Positions 649 to 62,608 of a stretch of 64,000 bases of DNA are shown here, piece by piece. How positions within the stretch are numbered: position 1 is the first letter of the stretch; each line of letters begins with the position of its first letter. A model generated the notes under the pieces. The model had not been told where the DNA came from, made no database searches, and was given only the letters and a program-made list of their open reading frames with translations. The stretch covers positions 62,001 to 126,000 of the forward strand of contig JACOUP010000002.1 in assembly GCA_016177765.1 (NCBI GenBank), read 5' to 3'. Source of the DNA: Deltaproteobacteria bacterium (lineage in GTDB: Bacteria > UBA10199 > JACPAL01 > JACOUP01). The translations under genes were made by a program, and so were the position numbers.

Positions 649-1446
649 ATGGAAAAAACATTCAGGATGATTCTGGAATACGATGGCACCGACTTCAACG
701 GCTGGCAGTCCCAGGCCAGGGGGCGGACCGTCCAGCAGGTTCTGGAGAAAGGGTTGCATCGGCTCCTCCGGCAAAAAATAAAGGTGGTCGGGGCCAGCCG
801 GACCGATTCCGGGGTTCATGCCTTGGGACAGGTGGCGCATTTCAAGGTCAATTGGAGCGGGTCCTGTCTCGGGTTCCGCCCAGCCGTGCTCACCCGTTCC
901 GCTCGGCTGGGCGCCCGACCCTCGCCACCCGCTCCAATGTCTCGCCTCCGCCACTCCCTCAACGCCGTCTTGCCCGACGACGTTGTCGTCAGACAGATTG
1001 AAGAAATGGGGGCTTCTTTTCACGCCATCCGGTTGGCCAGGGAAAAGACCTATCTCTACCGGATCTGGAACCACTGGTCTCGCCCGGTCCTGGAAAAGGA
1101 TTTTGTCTGGCATGTTCGAGAACCTCTGGATTCACGGGCGATGAGGAAGGGGGCAAGGTATTTGGTTGGGCGGCATGATTTCTCGGCATTTAAAGGAAGG
1201 AACAGCGAAACCAAAACAAAAGTGAGAACAATTTATAAAATTAAAATATCCCCTTCCCTGATTCAAATCACCGGCAACGGTTTTTTAAAATATATGGTTC
1301 GCAATATTGTCGGGACTTTGGTAGAGGTAGGAAAGGGGAGGCGGTTGCCAGCCGAGGTGGGCAAAATTTTGTCGTCGAAGGATCGCAGAAAAGCGGGGAT
1401 GACTGCTCCCGCCCACGGGCTATTTTTGAAGGAGGTGGTTTACTGA
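649..1446 (+). CDS. truA: tRNA pseudouridine(38-40) synthase TruA
   Basis: TruA converts U38-U40 in the anticodon arm of many tRNAs to pseudouridine. The catalytic Asp is in GASRTDSGVHALGQ (about residue 53). Other family blocks are LEYDGTDFNGWQ at the start, EKTYLYRIWN, and the C-terminal MVRNIVGTLVEVG. The ATG at 649 gives the normal N-terminus; starts further upstream would read through the palindromes. The protein is 265 residues but carries about 26 extra residues (roughly 71-96, between HFKVNWSGS and MSRLRHSLNAVLP) encoded by the palindromic element at 851-938. Known TruA proteins have a short loop between a strand and a helix here, so the insertion probably sits on the surface. Its stop overlaps the murD start (TGATG). 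Confidence 0.95.
   Translation: MEKTFRMILEYDGTDFNGWQSQARGRTVQQVLEKGLHRLLRQKIKVVGASRTDSGVHALGQVAHFKVNWSGSCLGFRPAVLTRSARLGARPSPPAPMSRLRHSLNAVLPDDVVVRQIEEMGASFHAIRLAREKTYLYRIWNHWSRPVLEKDFVWHVREPLDSRAMRKGARYLVGRHDFSAFKGRNSETKTKVRTIYKIKISPSLIQITGNGFLKYMVRNIVGTLVEVGKGRRLPAEVGKILSSKDRRKAGMTAPAHGLFLKEVVY
851..938. repeat. 88-bp palindromic element inserted in frame in truA
   Basis: Perfect 12-bp terminal inverted repeats (ATTGGAGCGGGT at 851-862, ACCCGCTCCAAT at 927-938) enclose a second perfect 10-bp pair (CGCCCAGCCG at 877-886, CGGCTGGGCG at 904-913). The element is open in the truA frame and coincides with residues that have no counterpart in typical TruA. It encodes no transposase; it resembles a MITE or an RPE-like coding palindrome. 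Confidence 0.75.
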
Positions 1447-2852
1447 TGGAGCTGGCAGGGAAAAGGGTATTTATTTTAGGACTCGACCAAGGGGTTGTTT
1501 CTGCGGCTCAGTTCCTGACGGATCAGAAAGTTCGTGTGACTGTTTTTGCCAGAACGCCGCGTAGCATCCATGAAAAGGTCCTCGCTTCGTTAAAAAAGAT
1601 CTCTTGCGATGTCCAATGGGGAGAGGTGGAGGAAAAGAGATTGTGTGAGGCGGGTCTCTTGGTTGCCGCCCCCGGTTATCGGTTTTACCGCTGGCCGCTT
1701 TCATTGGCCCGCCGCAAGGGAGTTCCGATCTGCAGTCTTTTGGAACTGGCCGGCTCCTTTTACAAAAAACCGGTGATTGCCGTGACCGGTTCGAATGGAA
1801 AAACAAGCACCATTGTCCTTTTACAGGCCTTTCTTAAAAAAGGGGGGGTCTCCCATGCCGTGGCGGGGGGTAGCTTTGCCTCTTATTTTGATCTTCTGCA
1901 GGAAAAGGGGAATGTTGATTATTTTGTTCTGGAAACGGGGAGTTTTGAACTGGAAGGGACGCAGAAGTTCCATCCCTGGATTGCCGTTTTTCTGAATGTC
2001 GGCGCCGAACACCGGGACCGGCACGGGACGCTGAAAAAATACCTGGAGGCCAAAGGGAAAATTTTTGCCAATCAGCAAAAAGGGGATTTTATTGTCTACC
2101 GCCATGACAGCAAGCTGATTGCCGCCATGCTTTCGGAGAAAAAGGCGGTTGTGACGACGGTCCCTTTTTGTTCGTCAAAAAAGATTTCACCCGGAATTTA
2201 TCGGGATGGAAAGAAGTTGGTTTATGGTGACAAGGGGAAAGAGGAATCGTATTCACTCGAAGATTTTCAGCTGAAAGGGGTTCATAATATTGAAAACCTG
2301 ATGGCGGCGATTGTGGTTGCCCGTCTCTGCGGCGTTTCCGCCGGCACGATCCGGGAGACGATCGGTGATCTCCGGTGGTTGCCGCATCGGCTGGAAAGGA
2401 CGGATGAGATCCAGGGGGTCACCTTTTACAACGACGCCAAATCGACCAATACGGTGGCTACTGCCTGGGCGTTGGGGAGTTTTACCGACAAAGTCATTCT
2501 GATCATGGGGGGGCGTTGGCGGGGTGGCTCCGATCTGGAGGGGTTAACTCCATTCATTCGGAGCAAGGTTAAGATTCTTGTCATTATTGGTTCGAATCGG
2601 ATGGTTTTTCACAAAAATCTGGGGGATCTGGTCCCTACCTTTGTCGTTCCTAAAATAGCCGATGCGGTTGAACTGGCCTACAAGAAGGCGATAACGGGAG
2701 ATACCGTTCTTTTCTCCCCGGCGGCCCCCACCGAATTTTCGGTTCATCCGGACTTCAGGGCGCGGGGGGAAGATTTCAAAAAGGCGGTCAATTCTCTCAA
2801 GGAATCACTGGTCAAGAAGCGTCTGCGGAGTTCCAGGCAGGAAAGGGTCTAA
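1446..2852 (+). CDS. murD: UDP-N-acetylmuramoylalanine--D-glutamate ligase MurD
   Basis: MurD adds D-glutamate to UDP-MurNAc-L-Ala in the cytoplasmic part of peptidoglycan synthesis. The 468-residue protein has an N-terminal Rossmann-type UDP-binding domain (LAGKRVFILGLDQG), the Mur ligase ATP loop TGSNGKTS near residue 118, the central NAEHRDRH-type region, and the C-terminal DAKSTNTVATAWAL and ILIMGGRWRGG blocks. A strong Shine-Dalgarno (AAGGAGGTGG) sits just before the ATG, which overlaps the truA stop by one base. No other mur or fts genes are nearby, so it is outside a classical dcw cluster. Its 3' end overlaps the convergent coiled-coil gene by 4 bp. A second, truncated copy of its N-terminus is at 6122-6265. 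Confidence 0.93.
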   Translation: MELAGKRVFILGLDQGVVSAAQFLTDQKVRVTVFARTPRSIHEKVLASLKKISCDVQWGEVEEKRLCEAGLLVAAPGYRFYRWPLSLARRKGVPICSLLELAGSFYKKPVIAVTGSNGKTSTIVLLQAFLKKGGVSHAVAGGSFASYFDLLQEKGNVDYFVLETGSFELEGTQKFHPWIAVFLNVGAEHRDRHGTLKKYLEAKGKIFANQQKGDFIVYRHDSKLIAAMLSEKKAVVTTVPFCSSKKISPGIYRDGKKLVYGDKGKEESYSLEDFQLKGVHNIENLMAAIVVARLCGVSAGTIRETIGDLRWLPHRLERTDEIQGVTFYNDAKSTNTVATAWALGSFTDKVILIMGGRWRGGSDLEGLTPFIRSKVKILVIIGSNRMVFHKNLGDLVPTFVVPKIADAVELAYKKAITGDTVLFSPAAPTEFSVHPDFRARGEDFKKAVNSLKESLVKKRLRSSRQERV

Positions 2853-4417
2853 ACGTTAGCCACTTCCTCAGTGGGGTAATCCAGTTTTTTGGCAAAATCG
2901 ATCTGGTCATCCTTGCCGTCACGGGCATCGTCGTTGATCGGCATCGCCCCCGGATTGATAAACTGGTCGTCGCTGGTCTCAACATATTTGATTGTCTCAC
3001 TCTCATCCTGGCTGTGGTCCAGGTAGCGTGTCCCCGCCCGTTGTAGCTCAAAATTTGGGTCCTCCCAGGTGAGGGAGCCATCTTCCCTGTTGTAGATATC
3101 GAATGTTTGCCCGTTAAACGAGATCAGATCGGCACTCCAGTAGTCCTTGTTGGCATTGCCGTCCCGACCACTTCCGCCAGGAAGATCGGCATCGGCTGTC
3201 CTGACGTTGGCGCCCGGATAGAGGGTCTTCAGGTAGTCGATGACGGTATCACGGATATCTTGCATCGCCTCCTGTCTTCGATTCGAATTATTATCCTTTC
3301 GGTTGATATGGTCCATGGCATCTTCGAAGAGGGCCTTTTCCAGATTGTGCTGGGCCAATTCGGAACTGTCGGCAATGCGCGTTGCATAATCTTCGATTTC
3401 GGTCTGGATCTCCTCCATGTCTCCTTCGTAGGCGCCCTTGGCCGCTTGGTCCTTGCCAACGGCCCCCTCTATTTTGGGAGAGTTGCTTTCGGCATCGATG
3501 GCCGCAATAAAATCGAGAACCTTCTGATTGGGTGTGGCGGGAAGTTCTCCACGAGGGTCAAGACCCGCCTGCTCCGCAAGTCCGGCGATTGTCTCCTCAT
3601 CCAATCCTGTCTTTTGCGCCATCGCACCGACCCAGTCGGAATAATAGCTGTTGTTGAAGACCCGTTCCTCGATGGTTTGAAGCTCTGTGACCAGATCCGA
3701 GATCCGATCGGGGGCCGATTCGGCCAGCCCGACCAACCGGTCGACATCCGCTTTGAGCTCGTTCTTCATCTCATCCGACATCTCGGAGGTGTCAATACGG
3801 CCTTTGATCTCTTCCGCCCTCGCCCGAAACTCTTCCGGCGTATCGATATTCTCGTCACTCGCTACTTCTTCCGCTTCGTCGGCCGCGGCCGCGGTCCTTT
3901 CGGCCTCCCGTTCAGCCCGTTCGATCTGAAGACTGATTCTCGCCTTTTCCCTTTCAAGGGAGCTGGCTTCATTCTGGAATTCAGAAAGGCGGGCCTCAAT
4001 CTGTCGCATCAGCTCTTCCCCCTGGGCCCGTTGGGAACTGGCGGGATCCAAACTATCCAGAAATGCCTGAAGGTTCGCCTTGGTCTCGTTTAATCCTTGG
4101 AGTTCAATGTCAATCTCACCGAGCCGGTAATCGATCTCTTCAATTCGCGCGTAGAGGGCATCCAGTTCTTCTGAAGTGGCCGGGGCACCGGCAGTCTCAC
4201 CGGCTTCCCCATCCTCTTCCGGAGGGGGAACATCACTCGACATCGCGGTGACGCTGACAGAGTTTCCAGTAGAACCTTCGATATAACCGGTCTGATCTGC
4301 GGCGATTTCAAGGTCATTGGAGACCTGCGGCCGGGACTCTTCCGTTTTCGGCCGGCTATTGGCGGTCTCGGCAGGCGGCGGTGTCGGACGGGACGAATTG
4401 TTGACTCGGATATTCAT
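2849..4417 (-). CDS. Large acidic coiled-coil protein, paralogue A
   Basis: I do not recognise a named family. The 522-residue product has no signal peptide or membrane segment. Residues 1-75 are Pro/Ser-rich and probably disordered; about 80-190 are heptad-rich Glu/Leu/Arg coiled coil; a mixed alpha region follows. From about residue 385 comes a compact C-terminal domain (DTVIDYLKTLYPGANV, then ADLISFNGQTFDIYN) and a very acidic tail. The same order and the same C-terminal motifs recur in the gene at 7439-8917, so the two are paralogues. The start is supported by GGGAGAG upstream. A sigma-54-type promoter lies at 4505-4523, exactly 87 bases before the ATG. Lack of a Sec signal with a Pro-rich head would suit a structural cytoplasmic protein or a substrate of a specialised secretion system; neither can be shown here. 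Confidence 0.85.
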   Translation of the reverse strand: MNIRVNNSSRPTPPPAETANSRPKTEESRPQVSNDLEIAADQTGYIEGSTGNSVSVTAMSSDVPPPEEDGEAGETAGAPATSEELDALYARIEEIDYRLGEIDIELQGLNETKANLQAFLDSLDPASSQRAQGEELMRQIEARLSEFQNEASSLEREKARISLQIERAEREAERTAAAADEAEEVASDENIDTPEEFRARAEEIKGRIDTSEMSDEMKNELKADVDRLVGLAESAPDRISDLVTELQTIEERVFNNSYYSDWVGAMAQKTGLDEETIAGLAEQAGLDPRGELPATPNQKVLDFIAAIDAESNSPKIEGAVGKDQAAKGAYEGDMEEIQTEIEDYATRIADSSELAQHNLEKALFEDAMDHINRKDNNSNRRQEAMQDIRDTVIDYLKTLYPGANVRTADADLPGGSGRDGNANKDYWSADLISFNGQTFDIYNREDGSLTWEDPNFELQRAGTRYLDHSQDESETIKYVETSDDQFINPGAMPINDDARDGKDDQIDFAKKLDYPTEEVANV

Positions 4418-4504
4418 TTTATCATTCTCTCCCTATTATCGTTTTCTGAGAGCCCCCAAGTTGCTCTTCGAAAGGCCCTTATTGGGTTATCCCCGATAGG
4501 TTAT

Positions 4505-4523
4505 TAAGCAAACGGTGTGCCAA
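4505..4523 (-). promoter_or_regulatory. Sigma-54 (RpoN) type promoter for paralogue A
   Basis: On the minus strand the sequence reads TTGGCACACCGTTTGCTTA. It matches the -24/-12 consensus YTGGCAC-N5-TTGCW, with exactly 10 bases between GG and GC. It lies in the short AT-rich gap upstream of the coiled-coil gene and implies a leader of about 75-80 nt. The paralogue has the same element at the same distance. Confidence 0.75.
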
Positions 4524-4609
4524 CTTTTTAGTTAATAAGTATATAATATTATTATACTTTTTAGATAGGGGAGAGGGGTTTTGGGGTTTGAAGACCCCGA
4601 TTTGAGGGG

Positions 4610-5443
4610 TCATGTGGTGTGCAGGTTGGTTTTTAGCTGTTCAAAGACTTCCCCGTATCGCTGGATCCAGTTTTCTTCCGCGGGATCTTCCAGAAAGTGT
4701 CCGATATCCTTGAGAATCATTTTGGCATCGAAAGAGGCGACCTTTTCTTCCAGCGCCACTGATACTGCTTGGGAATCGACCAACTTTTTTTCTCTTAATC
4801 CCCTATTGAGATAATCCAAATCAAGCGGCGTTTTGCGGCCGAGGTACCAAATCAGGTCGTAATAATCCCGGCCGCGCGTGAAAGGTCTTTGCAAAATGGC
4901 CAGTACCTTGCCGGCAAACAGGGTGGGGAGTGTCTGTTTGAGAATGGGATAAATTTCGGAATACCGGTTGACAAAAAAGCTCTCCCGCCCCAGTTTTTTA
5001 AGATGCGGCGGGTGTGTATCGACCTCCAGTTTGATGTGGAGTTTTTGCTCCCTCCGGAACCCTTTCAGTTGAAGCCCTTCCCCCAGGTCGGAAATTTTTA
5101 AAAAGCCCTTCTGCACCGTTTTTTCTTCTTTGGCCGTGGCACGGACTGAAAAACCGAGTAGTCCTGTCTCTCTTTCCAGCAGACGCATCAGATCGGGAAA
5201 ACGGTAGTCTTTTGACGGCAGGTCGAGGCAGAAGTCGAGATCTTCCGAATAGCGTTTGAGGTCATAGCAGAGCCTGAGGCAGGTCCCCCCCATGAAGGAG
5301 AGGGCCGCCCCCTGTCTGGACTGGTAGATCATTTTGAGAATGAGGATTTGCAGATATTCCCTGGCGACATTGAGAATTTCATCTTCCGTTGCCAATTGAC
5401 GCGAGGCCCTGAACGTCGCAATAATTTTTTTAAGTTTTTCCAT
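4610..5443 (-). CDS. abiEii: AbiEii-type nucleotidyltransferase toxin
   Basis: This is the toxin of a type IV abortive-infection toxin-antitoxin system. AbiEii enzymes are GTP-binding nucleotidyltransferases that halt growth, typically after phage infection. The 277-residue protein has the diagnostic MGGTCLRLCYDLKRYSEDLD block near residue 52 (GGTxLR plus RxSEDLDF), followed by the central Lys/Asp region and GRDYYDLIWYLG. Its start overlaps the end of the antitoxin gene upstream by 14 bp, so the pair is one operon with antitoxin first, the usual AbiE order. The module lies between the two coiled-coil paralogues, in a stretch that also holds gene fragments. Confidence 0.88.
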   Translation of the reverse strand: MEKLKKIIATFRASRQLATEDEILNVAREYLQILILKMIYQSRQGAALSFMGGTCLRLCYDLKRYSEDLDFCLDLPSKDYRFPDLMRLLERETGLLGFSVRATAKEEKTVQKGFLKISDLGEGLQLKGFRREQKLHIKLEVDTHPPHLKKLGRESFFVNRYSEIYPILKQTLPTLFAGKVLAILQRPFTRGRDYYDLIWYLGRKTPLDLDYLNRGLREKKLVDSQAVSVALEEKVASFDAKMILKDIGHFLEDPAEENWIQRYGEVFEQLKTNLHTT

Positions 5444-6023
5444 GATTTTTTAAAAAGGCAATAAGTGCCTCCACTTTTTTAACGCCTGTTTTTTTCCCGT
5501 AACCCGCCAATTTTTTAAAATCAAGGTTTTCCAGATTTTGCCACCGCAGTTCATTAAAACAGTCCGGCGTAAGGGAGAGACGCCCGCTTTCCAGGTAGAA
5601 AAAATCGGCCACCGCTTTTTCCTTTTCGGCCATGAGCGTATCGGGGTCGAAGCCAAAAAAGAGCTTGGGCTGGATGTGCCGATAGATAAATTGGCCCAGC
5701 GGTGTTTTAAAACGGCGGGTTGTTTTGGGGGTCACCAGCGTCATGGCAAAGACGACATCGGGGATGAGACCATGAAAATGCAGGGCGCTCTCCAGGCTGA
5801 TGTAGGCCGGTGCATAAAGGGCTCGTGCGGCCTCGGATTGTTCCAGAACGCGGTCCGGAAAGGCATAAATGCCCCTCTTCAGACGAAGGATCTGCCCGGC
5901 TTGGCTCCATTGATGGAGTTGCAGGCGCACGGTTGTGTCTTTTGTCACCCACGCCAGCCGCAAGGCCTCCGCCGTACGGAAAACCGCCTTGGGCATCTTT
6001 TTTTGAAATTCATTATATTTCAT
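5430..6023 (-). CDS. abiEi: AbiEi-type antitoxin / autorepressor
   Basis: The 197-residue protein has the AbiEi layout: an N-terminal winged helix (TAEALRLAWVTKDTTVRLQL, then WSQAGQILRLKRGIYAFP) and a C-terminal antitoxin domain with the YISLESALHFHGLIP block. Known AbiEi proteins bind inverted repeats in their own promoter and neutralise AbiEii at a distance. The ATG at 6023 follows a strongly AT-rich promoter (6037-6064). Overlap with the toxin gene suggests translational coupling. Confidence 0.87.
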   Translation of the reverse strand: MKYNEFQKKMPKAVFRTAEALRLAWVTKDTTVRLQLHQWSQAGQILRLKRGIYAFPDRVLEQSEAARALYAPAYISLESALHFHGLIPDVVFAMTLVTPKTTRRFKTPLGQFIYRHIQPKLFFGFDPDTLMAEKEKAVADFFYLESGRLSLTPDCFNELRWQNLENLDFKKLAGYGKKTGVKKVEALIAFLKNHGKT

Positions 6024-6036
6024 TTAATTATACTTT

Positions 6037-6064
6037 ATTATAATCTAATGAAATTATAGTGCAA
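6037..6064 (-). promoter_or_regulatory. Sigma-70 type promoter of the AbiE operon
   Basis: On the minus strand TTGCAC, 16 bases, then TATAAT lies 13 bases before the abiEi ATG, leaving a very short leader. ATTATA/TATAAT inverted half-sites around the -10 could be AbiEi binding sites, by analogy with known autoregulation. The promoter is seen; the operator role is inferred. Confidence 0.6.
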
Positions 6065-6121
6065 GGGAAATTTTTACAAAGGGTTGCTAAAAAAGTGGGT
6101 CCGTGTTACCGCAAAGTTAAA

Positions 6122-6265
6122 GTGGATCTCGCAGGAAAGAAAATTTTTGTACTCGGCCTCGAGGAACAGGCCCTCTCCCTGATTCGGTTTCTCGTTTCCC
6201 AAAAGGCCCATGTCACCGCCTTCGACAAGGTATCGGAAGCGGCCGCCCTTGAAAAAGTCCTTTAG
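6122..6265 (+). pseudogene. murD N-terminal fragment
   Basis: A 47-codon frame starting at GTG 6122 reads LAGKKIFVLGLEEQALSLIR and onward to AALEKVL, then stops. It aligns without internal gaps to residues 1-46 of the murD product at 1446 (LAGKRVFILGLDQGVVSAAQ ... IHEKVL), matching nearly every structural position of the first Rossmann half. Nothing MurD-like follows in any frame. The frame is open back to GTG 6059, but that extra part has no MurD counterpart. It is probably a decayed partial duplication or a remnant of an old second murD. Confidence 0.65.
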
Positions 6266-6333
6266 GCCGCCGACCTTTATGGAACCACTCCCTTGTGGAA
6301 GGCGATCCTTGGCCATTTACGGGGGGGTTTTTC

Positions 6334-6582
6334 GTGAAAAAAAAGACGGGTCAGCTCCCCGCATGGGAGGAATTGCTCTCGGCACAAGCCGTTTTTCAAT
6401 CTCGTTTTCCGGAATCCGTTCTTGTTGGCGGAACCGCCGCGGCGCTTCATGCCGGTCATCGCGTTTCGATGGATGCCGATCATGTTTTGCCCGATCTTAA
6501 AAAACGATTTGCCAAAATTTTGGCCCAAGTCGAAAAAGAAGCGGGTTGGAAAACAAGCCGGCATTTCGCCCGAAGAATTTAA
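6334..6582 (+). pseudogene. Truncated nucleotidyltransferase (AbiEii-like) fragment
   Basis: The 82-codon frame from GTG 6334 (GGGGGG upstream) contains PESVLVGGTAAALHAGHRVS followed by MDADHVLPDLKKRF. This is the GG-x-A-A-x-x-x-x-x-HR-x-S-x-D-x-D start of small nucleotidyltransferases. Family members are far longer, and the frame stops soon after this motif, so catalytic parts are missing. It sits beside the intact AbiE operon and the murD fragment and is best read as a remnant; a genuine minimal protein cannot be excluded. Confidence 0.55.
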
Positions 6583-6602
6583 CAACCTCTGATTGTGTCC
6601 GG

Positions 6603-7244
6603 CTATAACTTCATGCCGACGGTCAACACCGCCCCGTTAAGGTTTGCCGTCGGGGCGAACCCTAGCGATAAGTTTCCGGTATCAACATCTTGATAAAGGC
6701 CTAATGTGCTGTTGGGATTATCGTGGATACTACCTGTTTCTTGTCCCCGAAGAAGTTGGATTTTTGCTTTGGCGGCATCAAGCTCGCTCTGTGAAGGGTA
6801 AACGAGGGCCCCGCTTATAAATGATCCTGCACTGGCAACGCTAAAGCTGGCACCCACGATTGGAATAGAAATGGGTGTTACGTCGTCACCAATCCAGTAG
6901 ATCAGCAAAGCAGCAGCCGGTATGAGAAAGACTCCGCTTGCAACATAGAGAATCGTACCCGTTGTTTTGGCTCGCTCAAGTCCTGCGAGCTCTTGTTCAG
7001 CCTTGATAAGTTGAAGAGAAAATGTAAGCGACTGTCTACCGGAAGTAGCTTCGTCGTGCAAACCTGGGACGCTGTTCGTTTCAACGCAAGAACCTTCCTC
7101 ACATACCCTTGTGCCCTTGCAATCCGTATCCTTAGTACATCCTTCTGCGGCTGCTAATCTTAAGCGAAACTCTGGAACTTCTGCTTCATGATTTGGGGGA
7201 ACCCCCGCTGGAAAAAGGGTTGGTAAAGAAAGAGTAAGGGCCAT
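6603..7244 (-). CDS. Two-TM protein with Cys-rich N-terminal motif
   Basis: Function unknown. The 213-residue product has no clear signal peptide. It carries a compact Cys motif (CTKDTDCKGTRVCEEGSCVE, about residues 36-55) of a kind common in secreted myxobacterial proteins. Two hydrophobic stretches follow near residues 95-120 and 128-148, then a short Gly/Asn-rich tail ending NGAVLTVGMKL. The start is firm: AAAGGAGG lies seven bases before the ATG. It lies between the two coiled-coil paralogues, on the same strand as both but with its own ribosome-binding site. Confidence 0.75.
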   Translation of the reverse strand: MALTLSLPTLFPAGVPPNHEAEVPEFRLRLAAAEGCTKDTDCKGTRVCEEGSCVETNSVPGLHDEATSGRQSLTFSLQLIKAEQELAGLERAKTTGTILYVASGVFLIPAAALLIYWIGDDVTPISIPIVGASFSVASAGSFISGALVYPSQSELDAAKAKIQLLRGQETGSIHDNPNSTLGLYQDVDTGNLSLGFAPTANLNGAVLTVGMKL

Positions 7245-7355
7245 ATTTTGCCTCCTTTTTCAGCCTTCCTCGGCGGGGTTGATCAGAAGGTTGCGTAAAA
7301 AAGTTTAAAAAAGGGAATCTTTTGAACTTCAGGGGTGGAGGGGGGTTGGAAACAA

Positions 7356-7378
7356 GTCAATAAGTCAAGTCTGACCCC
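7356..7378. repeat. Short dispersed motif in the 7245-7438 gap
   Basis: The 194-bp gap between the two-TM gene and paralogue B holds a GTCAATAAGTCAAG / TCTGACCCC motif. Its reverse form (GGGGTCAGACTTGACTTATT) is familiar as an intergenic motif in many bacterial genomes, often near Y1-type transposases. No transposase is present. I see nothing else in this gap. Confidence 0.4.
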
Positions 7379-7438
7379 AAAGGTTTTTTACGTTTAAGAA
7401 GAAGGGGAGGGGATTTTTAAAGGGGGTCTTCTAGTGAC

Positions 7439-8917
7439 TTAATCAGTTTCAAATTCATTGGTTGGGACGTTGTTATCCTCTGCCGTATCAGATAATTCAC
7501 CAGCAAATTCACCGTCGCGTTCATGATCAATATCGACATCAATTGTATTCATATAGTGATCATCATCGACGATAGTGACAGGCTTTGAGTCCCCTCCCTC
7601 GACATCACCCCATGTATCTTCAGGAGTGTCCCATTCAGTATATTCGGTATACTTGGAAGTTGTTGGTTCGGCAAAGCGCAATTGGGCCTTGTCGTTGTGG
7701 ACAACATCGTAGGTCTTGCCGTTAAATTCGATCAGGTCGGCGTTAATCCAATTTTTGTTGATATTTTCTGAGTCAAGGCTTCCCTTTTCGATAGTCGCTC
7801 CAGGGTAGAGTATCTTGAGCCCCTCAATAAGACTATCGCGGATCTGTTCTCTGCTTTCTATGTGCTCCTTATCTTTTTCAGTATTTCTTGAAATAACCCT
7901 TCCCGCCTCGCGAACCAGTCCTAGATCATAGGAATAGTCATCAGGATCGCTGGCAACATTGCCATTTTCTGATTGAATTCTGTCGTTAACACCATTTCGT
8001 TGGTCTTCTAATTCTCCGTTAAGCCGCTTGATGTCGGCCATCTCCGATTTAAACCCTTCTTTTAACTCAGCCAGGAAGAGGATCACTTTTTCAGTCGGAG
8101 GATTGGGAATATTTTTAAGGTCGATGTTCTGTTTTTGAGCCGCCTTCACGACTTCTTCGGGATCAACATCGGCCCACTCCGCCAGTTCCCTCGCCTTTTG
8201 GGGGAACTCTTTCGTGCCGTCATAATCCACTTTAACTTCGTCCAGCTTGCCGAGCAGTTCGTCCATTTTTTCAGGGTTCGGGTTTCTCCCCAGTTCGGCC
8301 AACAGAAGGTCCAGTTTACGGACCTTTTCCTCTTTCTCGTCATCAGAGAGGTTGGCATCGCCCTGGATTTCGGTCCTTAACTGGGCGATGTCTGCGGCGA
8401 CGGTGGCGGCGGAAGGACCTTGGTCCTCCGTAGTTGCACCCTCTTCCCCGGCTGTTTCCGCTTCAAACGCAATATCCTCCATCCGTTCCTGGATCGCCGT
8501 CTGTCGGTCTTCCAGTTCCCGGATCTTGCCGTCCAGTTTGGCGGAGACCGCCTGGTAGACCGGGTTGTTGGAATCCAGACCGGCCGAGTCGAGACGATCC
8601 CGGAGCTGATGCAACTTATTCAATTCCTTTTCGACTTGTCTCTGTTCCTTTACCAGGCCTTTTTGTTCTTCATGCAAGGCCCGCGGGTCAGAAGGGGTCG
8701 GGTCGCTCCCCGGTTCCATCGGGGGGGGGAGGTCCCCGGGGGCCGAAACATCAAGACCATTGGCCCGCCCTGAAAGACGGTTGTTTAGGGAACCACTATC
8801 AACTCGAATCTGCCGACCGGCCACCGTCAGCTCATTTTTTCCCTTCCGTTCAGGGGCTGGCTGTGAGGTACCGGCAGTTCCCGTAACTCGAATCGAAGTC
8901 GGTTTGTTCACATTCAT
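7439..8917 (-). CDS. Large acidic coiled-coil protein, paralogue B
   Basis: Paralogue of the gene at 2849-4417, family unknown. From ATG 8917 it is 492 residues: a disordered Pro/Arg/Gly-rich head, a coiled-coil block (LVKEQRQVEKELNKLHQLRD onward), a mixed helical middle, and a C-terminal domain matching paralogue A (DSLIEGLKILYPGATI, then NADLIEFNGKTYDV). An acidic tail follows. There is no signal peptide or membrane segment. An in-frame ATG exists at 8950, but 8917 is preferred: AAAGGG lies upstream, the N-terminus then begins MNVNKP, resembling MNIRVN of paralogue A, and the distance to the sigma-54 element becomes 87 bases, identical to paralogue A. Overall similarity is confined mainly to the C-terminal domain, so the duplication is old. 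Confidence 0.83.
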   Translation of the reverse strand: MNVNKPTSIRVTGTAGTSQPAPERKGKNELTVAGRQIRVDSGSLNNRLSGRANGLDVSAPGDLPPPMEPGSDPTPSDPRALHEEQKGLVKEQRQVEKELNKLHQLRDRLDSAGLDSNNPVYQAVSAKLDGKIRELEDRQTAIQERMEDIAFEAETAGEEGATTEDQGPSAATVAADIAQLRTEIQGDANLSDDEKEEKVRKLDLLLAELGRNPNPEKMDELLGKLDEVKVDYDGTKEFPQKARELAEWADVDPEEVVKAAQKQNIDLKNIPNPPTEKVILFLAELKEGFKSEMADIKRLNGELEDQRNGVNDRIQSENGNVASDPDDYSYDLGLVREAGRVISRNTEKDKEHIESREQIRDSLIEGLKILYPGATIEKGSLDSENINKNWINADLIEFNGKTYDVVHNDKAQLRFAEPTTSKYTEYTEWDTPEDTWGDVEGGDSKPVTIVDDDHYMNTIDVDIDHERDGEFAGELSDTAEDNNVPTNEFETD

Positions 8918-9004
8918 AGAGATACCCTTTTCACTTCTATTATCGGGCAACCGGATCAGCCCAGTTGCGCCGCAGGGTGTATTAAAAATCCTCCCACCCT
9001 CTCT

Positions 9005-9023
9005 AAAGCAAGAGACATGCCAT
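9005..9023 (-). promoter_or_regulatory. Sigma-54 (RpoN) type promoter for paralogue B
   Basis: Minus-strand ATGGCATGTCTCTTGCTTT has the -24 GG and -12 GC with the obligatory 10-base gap, and it aligns with the element before paralogue A. It sits 87 bases upstream of ATG 8917. Confidence 0.72.
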
Positions 9024-9191: not shown

Positions 9192-10454
9192 ATGATAGAG
9201 CGTCAGTTAAAAGCTTGGTTGGGGGAGCAGGTACAGAATCCCCAAGTTGTTCAGATTCAGGGTTTGCGGCAGACCGGCAAGACCACCCTCATGGAACAGT
9301 TCCGTGAACAATTCCCCGGATCGCTCCATTATCCGCTCCAAAATTTGGTCATCTTGCAACGTTACCGTGGAGAACCGGAAAGATGGGTTCTCGAAATTGA
9401 GCAGGAGCTCTCAAAACGAGCGAAAGAGACCCCTGCTGTTTTGCCTGTTTTTGTTGATGAGGTTCAGAAGATACCGGCCTTCTATCAGGCCATTCAGGGT
9501 CTGTATGATGCGCACAAGGGAAGGATCAAGTTCTGGATATGGGGTTCCTCGGCACGGCCCATCAAGAGGAATGGGGCTGAAACACTGGCCGGGCGCGTTT
9601 TTACAAGAATTCTCTGGCCGTTTTCACAGTCTGAAGTTTTTCAGAAAGAAAGCGTTGTTTCCCATCTCGCCGCACCGGAGACCCTGTCCTCGTTGGGTAG
9701 TGCAGAACCGATCGGTTATTCGGAGTTTCTGACGCGGTTTTTTTCACAGAGCCTTCTCCCCGAACCTTATCTTGAAGAGGTCCGGGAAAAGTCCTTTGCC
9801 ATCCTCGAATCGTACCAAAGCACCTACCTTGAAAATGAAATAAGACGTGAAAATCTGGTTCGGGATATCGGCCTCTTTCAAAGGTTCCTGGTATTGGCCG
9901 CTTCCGAAAACGGGAATAACGCCAATTATGCGGCACAGGCCAAAGTTTTGGGGATTAGTCCGCTCACAGTGCAAAATTACTACCATCTGCTGGAAGACAC
10001 CTTTGTTTGCAGTCTGCTTCCGGCCTACAGCCAGTCTTTCAGGGTTCAGGTCGCTAAAAGCCCGCGCATTTGCTTTTCTGATGTGGGTCTCGCACGTTTT
10101 GTAGCTGGAGAACGAGGCCTCGTTCATGAGGGGACAGCCGCTTATGGCAAGATCTTCGAACCTTTCGTTGTCATGGAGGTTAAAAAACAGATAGACTATC
10201 ATCAGCTTCCCTGGAAACTGTTTTACTTCAGAACAAAAACAGGGGTGGAGGTCGATCTTGTTGTGAAAGCGCCCGGTCAGACATTTGCCTGTGAAATAAA
10301 ATCGGAGAAAAAAATCGGGCCGGGTGACTTCCGGGGTATTCAAAAATTGATGAATCTGGATCCAACCATTCAACATGGGATTGTTTTTTCGCTGGATCCT
10401 CGAATGGGACCGGTGGCCCCCCGTATTTATAATGTTCCTGTCTGGAATCTTTAA
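9192..10454 (+). CDS. AAA_14 / DUF4143 family ATPase
   Basis: Members of this widespread family join an N-terminal P-loop ATPase (AAA_14) to a C-terminal DUF4143 domain with a restriction-endonuclease-like fold. Their function is poorly known and they are often in mobile or defence regions. Visible here are Walker A GLRQTGKTT (about residues 24-32), Walker B VFVDEVQKI (about 99), sensor-like WGSSAR, a winged-helix segment AKVLGISPLTVQNYYHLLED, and the C-terminal FRTKTGVEVDLVV with CEIKSEKK, the PD-(D/E)xK-like core. Length (420) is normal. It has its own promoter and is followed by a repeat array, so it is probably a single-gene unit. Confidence 0.85.
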   Translation: MIERQLKAWLGEQVQNPQVVQIQGLRQTGKTTLMEQFREQFPGSLHYPLQNLVILQRYRGEPERWVLEIEQELSKRAKETPAVLPVFVDEVQKIPAFYQAIQGLYDAHKGRIKFWIWGSSARPIKRNGAETLAGRVFTRILWPFSQSEVFQKESVVSHLAAPETLSSLGSAEPIGYSEFLTRFFSQSLLPEPYLEEVREKSFAILESYQSTYLENEIRRENLVRDIGLFQRFLVLAASENGNNANYAAQAKVLGISPLTVQNYYHLLEDTFVCSLLPAYSQSFRVQVAKSPRICFSDVGLARFVAGERGLVHEGTAAYGKIFEPFVVMEVKKQIDYHQLPWKLFYFRTKTGVEVDLVVKAPGQTFACEIKSEKKIGPGDFRGIQKLMNLDPTIQHGIVFSLDPRMGPVAPRIYNVPVWNL

Positions 10455-22947: not shown

Positions 22948-23662
22948 AAAACCAAAGGGTGCTTCACCCAAGGGTGTGCCACCCAAGGGTGTGCCACCCA
23001 AGGGTGTGCCACCCAAGGCAATCCTCTTTGATTTTGACGGTGTCCTGGTCGATAACGAACCGATCCACCTCAAAATGTTCCAAAAAGTCCTGGCTGAAGA
23101 AGGCGTCCGGCTGACCCGGCAGGATTATTACACGAAATATCTGGGGATGGACGACAAAGGTTGCTTTTCGGCTGTTCTGAAAGCGGCGGGCCGGCCGACA
23201 TCCGTTGCTTATCTTCATCTGCTGACCCGGAGGAAGACCCGTTGCTATAAGGAGTTTGTCGCGAAACACCTCAAATTCTTGCCGGGGGTCAAAGAATTTA
23301 TCCAGGAGGCTTCAAAGAATTCTTGTTTGGGGATTGTCTCCGGGGCCCTTCGCGAAGAGATTTTGCTGATCCTTGGCCTCGGGGGGCTGAAAAAATATTT
23401 TTCAGTGATTGTCAGCGCAGAAGATGTCAAAAATGGCAAACCGAACCCGGAAGGGTACCTGCTGGGATTAAAAAAACTCTCTGCCTTTCACAAAGAAAAG
23501 ATTTTCCCCCGTGAAACGTTGGTCGTGGAAGACTCCCTATGGGGGATCGAAGCGGCCCACCGCGCCGGGATAAAATGCCTCGCTGTCACCACCTCGTACC
23601 CGGCCAGCCAACTCAAAAAAGCGGATTGGGTCGTCAAGGAACTTTCCCAATTTTTAATTTAA
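22940..23662 (+). CDS. HAD-superfamily phosphatase (beta-phosphoglucomutase-like) with repeat-encoded N-terminus
   Basis: A 240-residue HAD subfamily IA hydrolase: nucleophile motif ILFDFDGVLVDNEPIHLKMF, cap domain, motif II GIVSGAL, Lys in VKNGKPNPEGYLLGL, and motif IV LVVEDSLWGIEAAHRAG. It resembles phosphoglycolate phosphatases and beta-phosphoglucomutases; the substrate is unknown. ATG 22940 overlaps the greA stop (ATGGATAA). Between the start and the first strand lie four 15-bp units encoding KGASPKGVPPKGVPPKGVPPK, so the extra residues lie directly in front of the DFDG strand. Apart from this head the protein has normal length. The 3' end overlaps the convergent hydrolase gene by 9 bp. 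Confidence 0.9.
   Translation: MDKKPKGASPKGVPPKGVPPKGVPPKAILFDFDGVLVDNEPIHLKMFQKVLAEEGVRLTRQDYYTKYLGMDDKGCFSAVLKAAGRPTSVAYLHLLTRRKTRCYKEFVAKHLKFLPGVKEFIQEASKNSCLGIVSGALREEILLILGLGGLKKYFSVIVSAEDVKNGKPNPEGYLLGLKKLSAFHKEKIFPRETLVVEDSLWGIEAAHRAGIKCLAVTTSYPASQLKKADWVVKELSQFLI
22957..23014. repeat. 15-bp unit array, 4 units, longest in the window
   Basis: GGGTG-CTT-CACCC at 22957, then GGGTG-TGC-CACCC at 22972, 22987 and 23002, all with AA linkers. The last three units are identical, which points to recent tandem expansion. Confidence 0.9.
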
Positions 23663-52707: not shown

Positions 52708-53670
52708 TTACTCGTTCTCCCCGGTTATGGAGTAACCTTTTTCGTTGACGTCGATTTCAATCGTCCCCATCTGGTCGGTTCGATAAGCCGGGATCCCCCT
52801 TTCTTCCAATCTTTTTAAAACAGCCGGGTGTGGATGGCCGTAGTCGTTTTCTTTCCCGACCGAAATAATGACCGCCTCCGGCTTGAGCGTCTTCAGGAAA
52901 TTTTCATGAGTACTGGTCTGACTTCCGTGGTGGCCCAGATGGAGCAGGTCGATGTCGCCAACCAGTTCCCCTAACCTGGTTTCCAGGTCGGTCGTCTCTG
53001 TGATTCCCGAGGGTCCGCCTCCGGTGAGATCCCCTGTCGTCAGATAGCGAAAATTGCCGAACTCAATCAACAGGACGGCAGAGCGACCGTTTTCATCCTC
53101 TTGGGGGAGGGTTAAGGAAAGGCCGTCTTCGTATTTTCCATTAATCAGGGGGGTCGAGATCGTCATTTCACCCAAAGGCCATTGCTGACCCGGAGGAATC
53201 TCCCGTCTCCACGGTCCGGTGAGTGAGCGATAACCGGCGTAAAACGCCTTATCCTCGGCGGAATTATTTCCCCGATCCCAAATGCCATCCGTTGGAACCC
53301 AGTCGTCATCCGTTCCGAGGGTCCCATCCCGGCCGGGTAACAGGTCGAAGAGCCCGCCAATATGGTCCCCGTCGTAATGGGAGACAAAAAGGAGGTCGAT
53401 TTTTCCGATCCCGGCCTCCTCCAGATACGGGATAATCCTGTTTTTGCCGGAGCCCAACGGGCCGGCATCGATCAAGACCGTTTTTCCTGAAAGAGAAATG
53501 AGGAGTGTGGCATCCCCCTGGCCAACATCGAGGGCAACGATCCTCAGAATGGCATCGGTTTTTCCGCTGTTGTCTCCAGTTTCGGAGGAACCAGAGGTTC
53601 TTTCCTGGGGAAGATCCGGGAGGGGGGAACAGGAGGAGAGCAGGACAAAAAGCAGAAAAAGTTTCTTCAT
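52708..53670 (-). CDS. ComEC-like MBL-fold lipoprotein
   Basis: The 320-residue protein has a lipoprotein signal (MKKLFLLFVLLSSC, Cys 14) and a metallo-beta-lactamase domain of the ComEC/Rec2 C-terminal type: ALDVGQGDATLLIS, LIDAGPLGSGKNR, VSHYDGDHIGGLFDLLPG, YLTTGDLTGGG, HLGHHGSQTST and ISVGKENDYGHPHPAVLKRL. It lacks the ComEC membrane channel, so it is a stand-alone secreted hydrolase, possibly a nuclease or phosphodiesterase. A Ca-like GTDDDW insertion lies after the HxxxDH motif. The gene is bracketed by inverted repeats. Confidence 0.88.
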   Translation of the reverse strand: MKKLFLLFVLLSSCSPLPDLPQERTSGSSETGDNSGKTDAILRIVALDVGQGDATLLISLSGKTVLIDAGPLGSGKNRIIPYLEEAGIGKIDLLFVSHYDGDHIGGLFDLLPGRDGTLGTDDDWVPTDGIWDRGNNSAEDKAFYAGYRSLTGPWRREIPPGQQWPLGEMTISTPLINGKYEDGLSLTLPQEDENGRSAVLLIEFGNFRYLTTGDLTGGGPSGITETTDLETRLGELVGDIDLLHLGHHGSQTSTHENFLKTLKPEAVIISVGKENDYGHPHPAVLKRLEERGIPAYRTDQMGTIEIDVNEKGYSITGENE

Positions 53671-53731
53671 GATCGTGAAAGAGATGCAAATAACGTGCCT
53701 TTAACGAACGGATGATAACAAGGTGGTTTGT

Positions 53732-53748
53732 GGCGACGCGAGCCCCTA
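53732..53748. repeat. Right copy of the 17-bp inverted repeat
   Basis: GGCGACGCGAGCCCCTA, the reverse complement of 52630-52646. Confidence 0.6.
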
Positions 53749-53755
53749 GAGAACA

Positions 53756-53790
53756 GTTCGAAAATCGAACCCACGGTTCGAAAAACGAAC
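53756..53790. promoter_or_regulatory. Two tandem 15-bp operator-like palindromes
   Basis: GTTCGAAAATCGAAC (53756-53770) and GTTCGAAAAACGAAC (53776-53790), start to start 20 bp apart. Both have perfect GTTCG/CGAAC arms and A-rich centres. Tandem, near-identical palindromes two helical turns apart are typical of a repressor operator. They lie upstream of the secreted-protein gene at 53977. Confidence 0.5.
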
Positions 53791-53795
53791 TCTTT

Positions 53796-53949
53796 CAAAT
53801 CATCAGGAGGGGATCCCCTTCCAGTACCGGGAGTCCATTCCGCTCCGGCCGCGGAATGTCTCCCTGCGGTCTCGGCCCCATATTTTGTGGGCCATAGGGT
53901 GATGGGGCCTGTGACAGCTACTTTCAGGGAATCCCCTCCTGATGATTTG
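53796..53949. repeat. 154-bp element with 23-bp terminal inverted repeats
   Basis: CAAATCATCAGGAGGGGAT plus CCCC (53796-53818) pairs with 53927-53949 at 22 of 23 positions. Inside are smaller hairpins (GGCCCCATATTTTGTGGGCC and CCGCTCCGGCCGCGG). It could be a MITE or a structured leader RNA of the following gene. With the operators it makes up the 306-bp gene-free gap 53671-53976. Confidence 0.65.
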
Positions 53950-53976
53950 GCACTTTATTTGCAGAAGACAAGAAAC

Positions 53977-54576
53977 ATGAAGCAGAATCTCTTATTGGTT
54001 GTTTTTATTTTTTTCACCTCGAACCTCTTGGCCGTTGACCGATCGGGGGGTCCGGATAACGAGCCAACCGTTCAGGAGGTTCAGGAGGCGGCCCTCCGGT
54101 ATACCGGTTCCAATCCGATGGAGTTGGAATCCTTGAAAAAAAAGGCAAGATGGTCTGCGGCAATGCCGAGGTTGCAGTTCGGCTACGCCAGGGAACTCAA
54201 AGATGTCATCAGTCTGTCCTCGAAAGACAGTGTGCAGGTCAGTGGCGGCAATGTCTTTATTGGCCCCGATGAGAATGATCTTTCGAAGAATTTTAACAGC
54301 GGGACCAGTGTGGATGTCCGCGCCGTCTGGTATCTGAACGAACTTGTTTTTAACAAGGACCTGTTGGATGTCGGGGTGGAACAGAGGAATTGGAACCGAG
54401 AGAGAAGCCGCATTGCGAGCGAGGTCGCAGAGCTCTACTATGCCCGCCGGAGGGTTCAGGAAGAAACTGTCAATAATGTCCACGGCCGGTGGCTGAAAAT
54501 TGCTGAATTGACGGCCCAGCTCGATGCCCTGACAGGGGGGTGGTTTAGTCAGCATCTGGGAAGGGCCCAACCATGA
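53977..54576 (+). CDS. Secreted protein with TolC-like helical segment
   Basis: From ATG 53977 the 199-residue product has a signal peptide (MKQNLLLVVFIFFTSNLLAV) and a sequence reminiscent of half an outer-membrane-factor protein: ESLKKKARWSAAMPRLQFGY, VRAVWYLNELVFNKDLLDVG, then a long helix SRIASEVAELYYARRRVQEE. It is far shorter than TolC (over 400), so it is either a small relative or a partial copy. Its last 4 bp overlap the next gene. Confidence 0.7.
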   Translation: MKQNLLLVVFIFFTSNLLAVDRSGGPDNEPTVQEVQEAALRYTGSNPMELESLKKKARWSAAMPRLQFGYARELKDVISLSSKDSVQVSGGNVFIGPDENDLSKNFNSGTSVDVRAVWYLNELVFNKDLLDVGVEQRNWNRERSRIASEVAELYYARRRVQEETVNNVHGRWLKIAELTAQLDALTGGWFSQHLGRAQP

Positions 54577-61578: not shown

Positions 61579-62608
61579 AAGAATCAGAGCCGATGAGGCG
61601 CTGGCGCTCTTTGATCTTCCACTTGAAGACTTGAAAAGGCTTGCCCAGGAACGCCGGGTTCAAATCTTACCGGCGGACCAGGCGACTTACCTCATCATGC
61701 GGATTGTGAGCTATACCAACGTCTGTGTGGCCGACTGTTCCTACTGCGCCTTTTATCGCCGACCGGGAGATCCGGAGGCCTATGTCCTGACCGAACGGGA
61801 GATTTTCAAAAAGATTGATGAACTGCTGGCCTGCGGCGGGAGTCTGGTGGCGATGGAAGGGGGGTTCAACCCTGACTTAAAGATTGATCATTACGAAAAA
61901 TTATTTCAGGCGGTTCGCCGAAGGTACGGTGCTTCGATCGAGATCTATGGCCCCACTTCGGTGGAGATCCTCTATATCGCCAATCATTCCCAGATTTCTG
62001 TCGAAGAGGCATTGTCCCGCCTGTGGGATTCCGGACTGCGCTGGATCCCGGGGGGAGGGGCAGAGATCCTGACGCCGGGATGGCGAAAAAAACTCTCCCC
62101 GAGGAAATACAGCATTGAGCAATACTTTCGTGTCATGGAGCTGGCGCGGAAAAAGGGGTTCGGGACAACGGCGACGATGGTGATCGGTTTTGGGGAAGAT
62201 AACAAGGCCCGTCTGGAGCACCTGGCCCGCCTGCGGGAGTTTCAGGACAAAGACGGCAATTTCGCAAGTTTCCTCTGTTGGACCTACCAGCCGGACAACA
62301 CGGTTCTCGCCGGAGGGAGGGTTTCCAACGAGGAATACTTGAAGACCATCGCCATCTCTCGGCTCTTTTTGGATAACATCCCCCATATCCGTGCCTCATT
62401 GCTGACCGAAGGAGAGGCAGGGGTTAAGGCGCTCCTTTGCGGGGCGGATGATTTTGATATCCCGCTCGAAGATCAGGTGACTGAGAAGGCCGGGGTCAAT
62501 CTGGAGACAAACATCCCTCGCGTGCTGGGATGGCTTGAAAGTTTGGGCTTGCAACCGGTCCGCCGCCAGCCCTGGTCTTTGCCACAACGACTTGGATTAA
62601 CCGGTTAG
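61568..62608 (+). CDS. mqnC: Cyclic dehypoxanthine futalosine synthase MqnC
   Basis: Radical SAM enzyme that cyclises dehypoxanthine futalosine, the step before MqnD. The 346-residue protein has the cluster motif VCVADCSYCAFYRRPGD (CX3CX2C, about residue 57), MEGGFNPDLKIDHYEKL, EIYGPTSVEILYIA, PGGGAEILTPGWRKKLSPRK, TMVIGFGED and DNTVLAGG. These are hallmark MqnC blocks, separating it from MqnE. Translation is coupled to gpsA. The end overlaps the convergent nucleotidyltransferase gene by 12 bp. Confidence 0.95.
   Translation: MGSKRIRADEALALFDLPLEDLKRLAQERRVQILPADQATYLIMRIVSYTNVCVADCSYCAFYRRPGDPEAYVLTEREIFKKIDELLACGGSLVAMEGGFNPDLKIDHYEKLFQAVRRRYGASIEIYGPTSVEILYIANHSQISVEEALSRLWDSGLRWIPGGGAEILTPGWRKKLSPRKYSIEQYFRVMELARKKGFGTTATMVIGFGEDNKARLEHLARLREFQDKDGNFASFLCWTYQPDNTVLAGGRVSNEEYLKTIAISRLFLDNIPHIRASLLTEGEAGVKALLCGADDFDIPLEDQVTEKAGVNLETNIPRVLGWLESLGLQPVRRQPWSLPQRLGLTG

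Follow-up and report, generated by a model that had tools for sequence, protein, structure and literature searches.

Putative sigma-54 promoters and a convergent MurD-like ligase mark a class-restricted family of coiled-coil proteins

Results

The 64,000-nucleotide stretch analysed here (the window; positions 62,001 to 126,000 of contig JACOUP010000002.1 from a Deltaproteobacteria bacterium, assembly GCA_016177765.1) carries two paralogous genes for coiled-coil proteins, each behind a putative sigma-54 (RpoN) promoter element, with a second gene of the MurD ligase family converging on one of them. Gene A (2849–4417, minus strand) is an open reading frame (ORF) of 522 amino acids. Gene B (7439–8917, minus strand) encodes 492 amino acids when read from the ATG at 8917, the TTG start of the ORF at 8950 being less likely. 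By BLASTP the two proteins match with an E value of 9e-21 and 24% identity over 474 amino acids. An AlphaFold model of A, built on 11 homologues (mean predicted local distance difference test score, pLDDT, 68), gives a disordered Pro-rich head at residues 1–77, a coiled coil at 82–185, a helical bundle at 194–399, a small alpha/beta C-terminal domain to residue 459 and a disordered tail. On inspection neither protein has a signal peptide; here and throughout, the presence or absence of signal peptides was called by eye. BLASTP, inspection and modelling thus bear out a preliminary description of this DNA, in which A and B were signal-less paralogues that have a Pro-rich head and a coiled coil and share a C-terminal domain.

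That description had also proposed an undescribed family of structural or secreted type, and no described relative emerged from library or fold searches. Pfam, NCBIfam, PHROGs, PADLOC and the PDB sequences gave nothing above threshold, with weak coiled-coil matches at most. The C-terminal region matched no known domain in the libraries searched, so nothing there places it in a known, unrelated family, the outcome that the preliminary description had named as adverse. The model of A found no fold relatives at an E value of 0.001, and its matches, which include coiled-coil parts of a secretion translocator, were not significant. A defence role was considered and set aside, the searches giving weak coiled-coil matches for A and none for B or the MurD-like neighbour. 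A profile search for family members matched 9 of 385 genomes, all from the same class. The family core is a module that spans about 170 positions and includes a GLDL..LP.PP....FL.EL stretch followed later by an LYPG...AD.I.F.G stretch; weaker forms of this module occur in several large neighbouring proteins of relatives. The model of the large partner protein was of poor quality (pLDDT 53). A and B belong to a family that is restricted to one class and consists of acidic coiled-coil proteins lacking a signal peptide and without a known homologue.

The sigma-54 (−24/−12) elements are TTGGCACACCGTTTGCTTA for A (4505–4523, minus strand) and ATGGCATGTCTCTTGCTTT for B (9005–9023, minus strand). Both satisfy the GG-N10-GC spacing and the TGGCAY-N5-TTGCW pattern, and both lie 87 nucleotides from their ATG (at 4417 and 8917), as had been claimed. 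We scored them with a weight matrix built from the published-type consensus and not fitted to the A and B sites. Each outscored all 200 of 200 dinucleotide-based shuffles of its own 350-nucleotide upstream region, while shuffles were not beaten by the five control genes of the same stretch, namely the MurD-like gene, AbiEii, AbiEi, the ORF at 6603–7244 and an AAA_14 ATPase gene. The intervening 87-nucleotide leaders (4418–4504 for A and 8918–9004 for B, both minus strand) share CGATAATAG. In line with the preliminary description, they are otherwise not significantly alike, their global alignment score being reached by 81 of 2000 shuffles. An RNA element in these leaders was rejected, given fold z-scores of −0.7 (A) and −1.5 (B), the lack of significant likeness and no Rfam match there. 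The elements predict transcription of both genes by sigma-54 RNA polymerase, and we regard sigma-54 control of A and B as very probable.

Linkage of such promoters to the family was also found in other genera, which supports the reading of the elements as RpoN-type promoters. A strong element was seen for 7 of 11 family members, either directly or before a co-oriented upstream partner. In genome G029 it lies 36 nucleotides before the family gene, and in G019 it stands at 36 nucleotides from the start of a co-oriented gene located upstream of the family gene; three shorter paralogues in genus g19 have strong elements at 118–119 nucleotides; all of these beat every shuffle. A further ORF of the large family in G019 (L147) also has an exact sigma-54 site upstream. 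The spacing of 87 nucleotides is therefore not a family trait. Judged from these upstream regions, sigma-54 control of the family appears to be recurrent, not universal.

The genome from which the window comes (G000; an assembly of 1.92 Mb, 96.5% complete) was scanned for further sites. The exact pattern TGGCAYN5TTGCW (TGGCAYNNNNNTTGCW) occurs 27 times in the whole genome, against once for a reversed control pattern. At least 14 of these 27 sites lie upstream of genes for lipoproteins or proteins with ordinary signal peptides, for example a porin-like protein, a subtilase and an NHL-repeat protein. Others are found upstream of A and B, of two REP-type transposase genes, of a small response-regulator ORF and of a few unknowns, and two or three of the 27 look like chance. 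As the sites lie mostly at other genes, A and B do not form a private regulon, and the proposal of a dedicated RpoN regulon is not supported; the two genes fall within a sigma-54 regulon that extends across the genome, with about 27 sites, mostly at lipoproteins and secreted proteins. Nor are their elements the only ones in intergenic DNA of the window, as had been thought. A divergent sigma-54-like pair spans 53685–53963, with an exported-protein gene 14 nucleotides beyond each element: TGGCACTTTATTTGCA (53948–53963, plus strand) is a third exact match in the window, before the ATG at 53978 of a signal-peptide gene, and AGGCACGTTATTTGCA (53685–53700, minus strand), with one mismatch, precedes the ATG at 53670 of a lipoprotein gene.

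The gene convergent with A was overlooked in the preliminary description and is the most informative neighbour. It encodes MurD2 (1446–2852, plus strand), a second MurD-family ligase by profile, tree and motifs, and its end overlaps that of A by 4 nucleotides. MurD2 scores 294 bits against TIGR01087 (curated cut-off 212). The ordinary MurD1 (C8:797698–799068) lies inside a full dcw cluster; MurD2 lies outside it. A MurD-like gene is convergent with a family gene in seven genomes (G000, G009, G019, G015, G008, G024 and G029), which span six genera and four families. The gap between the two genes is −11 to +18 nucleotides in six of the seven pairs; the MurD-like gene of G024 is cut short. On the far side of the pair, relatives usually have a protein kinase gene. 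With fragments of single genes set aside in the copy counts, the family is present in all seven genomes with a second MurD, and genomes that lack the family have a single MurD. G042 (80% complete) likewise has a single MurD and, of the family, the shorter paralogue only.

A tree of 34 MurDs places the seven paired copies on one side of a branch with support of 99/99; the terminal branches of these copies are long, and the branching order among them is uncertain. Each of the seven retains the P-loop together with the catalytic His and Lys residues of MurD. None of them has the SPACxS-xD motif of ordinary MurDs; at the Lys of DDSKGTN, four carry a replacement and three, the window copy among them, keep the residue. 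In MurD, these two motifs are established as forming the D-glutamate site. MurD2 is thus like MurD in its score and catalytic residues, and unlike it in being a second copy outside dcw, in its separate group and in its changed D-glutamate motifs; in one relative the copy is also without its N-terminal domain. We consider the pairing of the family with MurD2 to be a strong genomic association, and would expect, with fair though not high confidence, that it reflects a functional tie.

Duplicated Mur ligases apart from the dcw operon have precedents in a second murC of Frankia (PMC7231273) and in the archaeal pseudomurein ligases (PMC11915815). The present case differs in the tie of MurD2 to a coiled-coil family and to sigma-54 control.

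The genome encodes eight sigma-54 activators (PF00158), on contigs C1, C8 and C13, all with an intact G(A/S)FTGA loop. None of the eight lies beside A or B, so the adjacent NtrC-type activator that the preliminary description had suggested looking for was not found. FHA domains are present in three of the eight, and a Ser/Thr kinase gene lies within about 6 kb of each of these three. FHA-domain sigma-54 activators with Ser/Thr kinases are known from myxobacteria. The likeness here extends to a kinase-TPR-GAF-sigma-54-activator fusion near the family locus of G015 (L082:11613–16238), and the three FHA activators are candidates for acting on A or B. The N-terminal part of a similar kinase, with its own sigma-54 site, is found in G019 (L081:1–930).

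Discussion

On balance we favour a reading in which A and B come from an envelope-related protein family that is switched by sigma-54 and coupled to a Mur ligase turned to a new use, with a biochemical role that we infer from the partner and the regulon. A and B would be transcribed by sigma-54 RNA polymerase within a broad envelope regulon, the activators being enhancer-binding proteins, some with FHA domains and encoded near Ser/Thr kinases. As FHA-bearing activators are encoded near such kinases, the likely switch would run from a kinase through an FHA-type activator to the sigma-54 promoter, whichever activator acts. The tail-to-tail position with MurD2 is common to six other genomes, so A would be the ancestral copy, and B a duplicate that kept or regained its sigma-54 promoter. 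MurD2 would be a Mur ligase that keeps ATP-dependent acyl-ligase chemistry with a changed amino-acid site. The family proteins would most likely work at the envelope in a process shared with MurD2, where they could be a scaffold, a substrate or an exported structural protein. This role is the likeliest because sigma-54 targets here are mostly envelope proteins and because the partner descends from a wall-building enzyme, and we rate it as an even call.

The view that sigma-54 governs the bacterial exterior has been published (PMC3162934), and the at least 14 of 27 sites before lipoprotein or signal-peptide genes agree with that theme. The regulon described here is like those envelope regulons in the sequence and spacing of the −24/−12 elements, in its NtrC-type activators and in its lipoprotein- and envelope-dominated targets. 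It is unlike them in that the A/B family is undescribed and restricted to one uncultured class, and in that rpoN is missing from this assembly. If our reading holds, two orphan proteins gain a family in which both the regulation and an enzyme partner are conserved. In an uncultured lineage, a MurD copy with the ligase core, altered amino-acid-site motifs and constant company of the same family would then point towards a new role for Mur ligases.

Several observations weigh against this reading. No sigma-54 element precedes MurD2 itself, and the Ser/Thr kinase neighbour that it has in relatives is absent beside the window copy. The family genes of G015, G008, G024 and G009, which lie next to MurD2, have no clear element within 350 nucleotides. 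Our searches found no structure or homologue that points to the function of the family. Finally, rpoN (as the sigma-54 DNA-binding family) was not found in the assembly of G000, nor in G001, the only other genome of the same taxonomic family in the set; in G001 pyrG is present and rpoN does not follow it.

Some of these points would fit another picture, in which the sigma-54 promoters are genuine but the MurD neighbour, with no functional link, reflects nothing more than old synteny. A and B would then be ordinary cytoplasmic coiled-coil proteins, under the kind of control that many other genes have. Besides the missing element before MurD2, convergent genes are not co-transcribed and B is situated away from MurD2. 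Against this, the pair has been kept across six genera of four families despite strong divergence of both proteins, and a second MurD is found only together with the family. We therefore think old synteny possible but unlikely.

The coupling of the family to MurD2 could also be more intimate than in the favoured reading. In a Mur-ligase-based protein system, MurD2 would join amino acids or peptides to the coiled-coil proteins, or to a non-murein substrate that they bind, as part of a module under sigma-54 and kinase control that builds or modifies an envelope structure. In one relative, a MurE-like ligase without the UDP-sugar domain would do likewise. We hold this to be doubtful. The ligase concerned, in G009 (L079:12083–13327, minus strand), lacks the N-terminal domain, and its gene shares 17 bp with the end of a co-oriented gene for a large protein, whose head is like those of the family. 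G009 has a full MurE in its own dcw cluster. This arrangement in G009 counts in favour of the main reading as well.

Still less probable, in our view, is that the family proteins pass through a dedicated system for export or injection, in which case their disordered Pro/Asn/Tyr-rich heads would be the secretion signals, and the Mur ligases paired with them would protect or remodel the producer's wall. The signal-less disordered heads, similar in make-up in the family and in the large partner proteins, and the combination of a coiled coil with a conserved C-terminal module would suit substrates of such a system. However, the surroundings of these genes yielded no secretion system (a genome-wide search was not made), and the fold matches, including those to translocator coiled coils, fall short of significance.

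Returning to sigma-54 control itself, the absence of rpoN needs an explanation. The sigma-54 DNA-binding family was present in 56 of 58 other relatives searched, and a relative's RpoN protein used as query had no match in G000 or G001 and strong matches in two genomes of the same order. In one same-order relative, G004, the gene order is pyrG-rpoN-(hpf-ptsN)-hprK-rapZ-HPr-metK; a place for rpoN beside metK, as in that genome, was considered and does not hold in this window. An hpf-ptsN-hprK query, which had no positive control, gave no true match in G000. A rapZ-hprK-pyrG query likewise gave none there and did match in the controls G002 and G005. The genes pyrG, rpoN, hprK and rapZ are thus all absent from an assembly that is 96.5% complete. 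Since pyrG is normally indispensable and is missing too, an assembly gap is the best reading; a moved operon or a real loss of rpoN keeps some weight because rpoN does not follow pyrG in G001. The preliminary description had held that a genome without rpoN would speak against sigma-54 promoters. Taken literally the assembly is such a genome, but a gap explains this better, with pyrG and its neighbours missing and the activators and sites intact. It is very improbable that the elements are chance or relic sequences of a lineage that lost rpoN: rpoN, hpf, ptsN, hprK and rapZ do lack matches in G000 or its sister G001, but against this stand the excess of 27 sites over 1, the eight intact activators, the recurrence of elements upstream of homologues in genera that do have rpoN in their genomes, and the absence of pyrG from the same assembly.

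Other features

The interval between A and B holds an AbiEi/AbiEii toxin-antitoxin pair (4610–6023, minus strand), which is immediately upstream of A and on the same strand. Between this pair and the ORF beginning at 6603, an apparent remnant of a nucleotidyltransferase-like gene was recognised by eye at 6080–6600 (VLVGGTAAALHAGHR in one frame). An AAA_14/DUF4143 ATPase gene (9192–10454, plus strand; PDC-S01 model) is divergent from B, and further AAA/DUF4143-like genes are found on C8 near sigma-54-driven lipoprotein genes. The two REP-type (Y1) transposase genes (L007 and L017, around 1501) begin about 12 nucleotides after exact sigma-54 sites. At 22966–23011 (minus strand), three tandem copies of TGGCACACCCTTGGGT within an ORF encoding PKGVPPKG repeats bear a chance resemblance to half a sigma-54 site.

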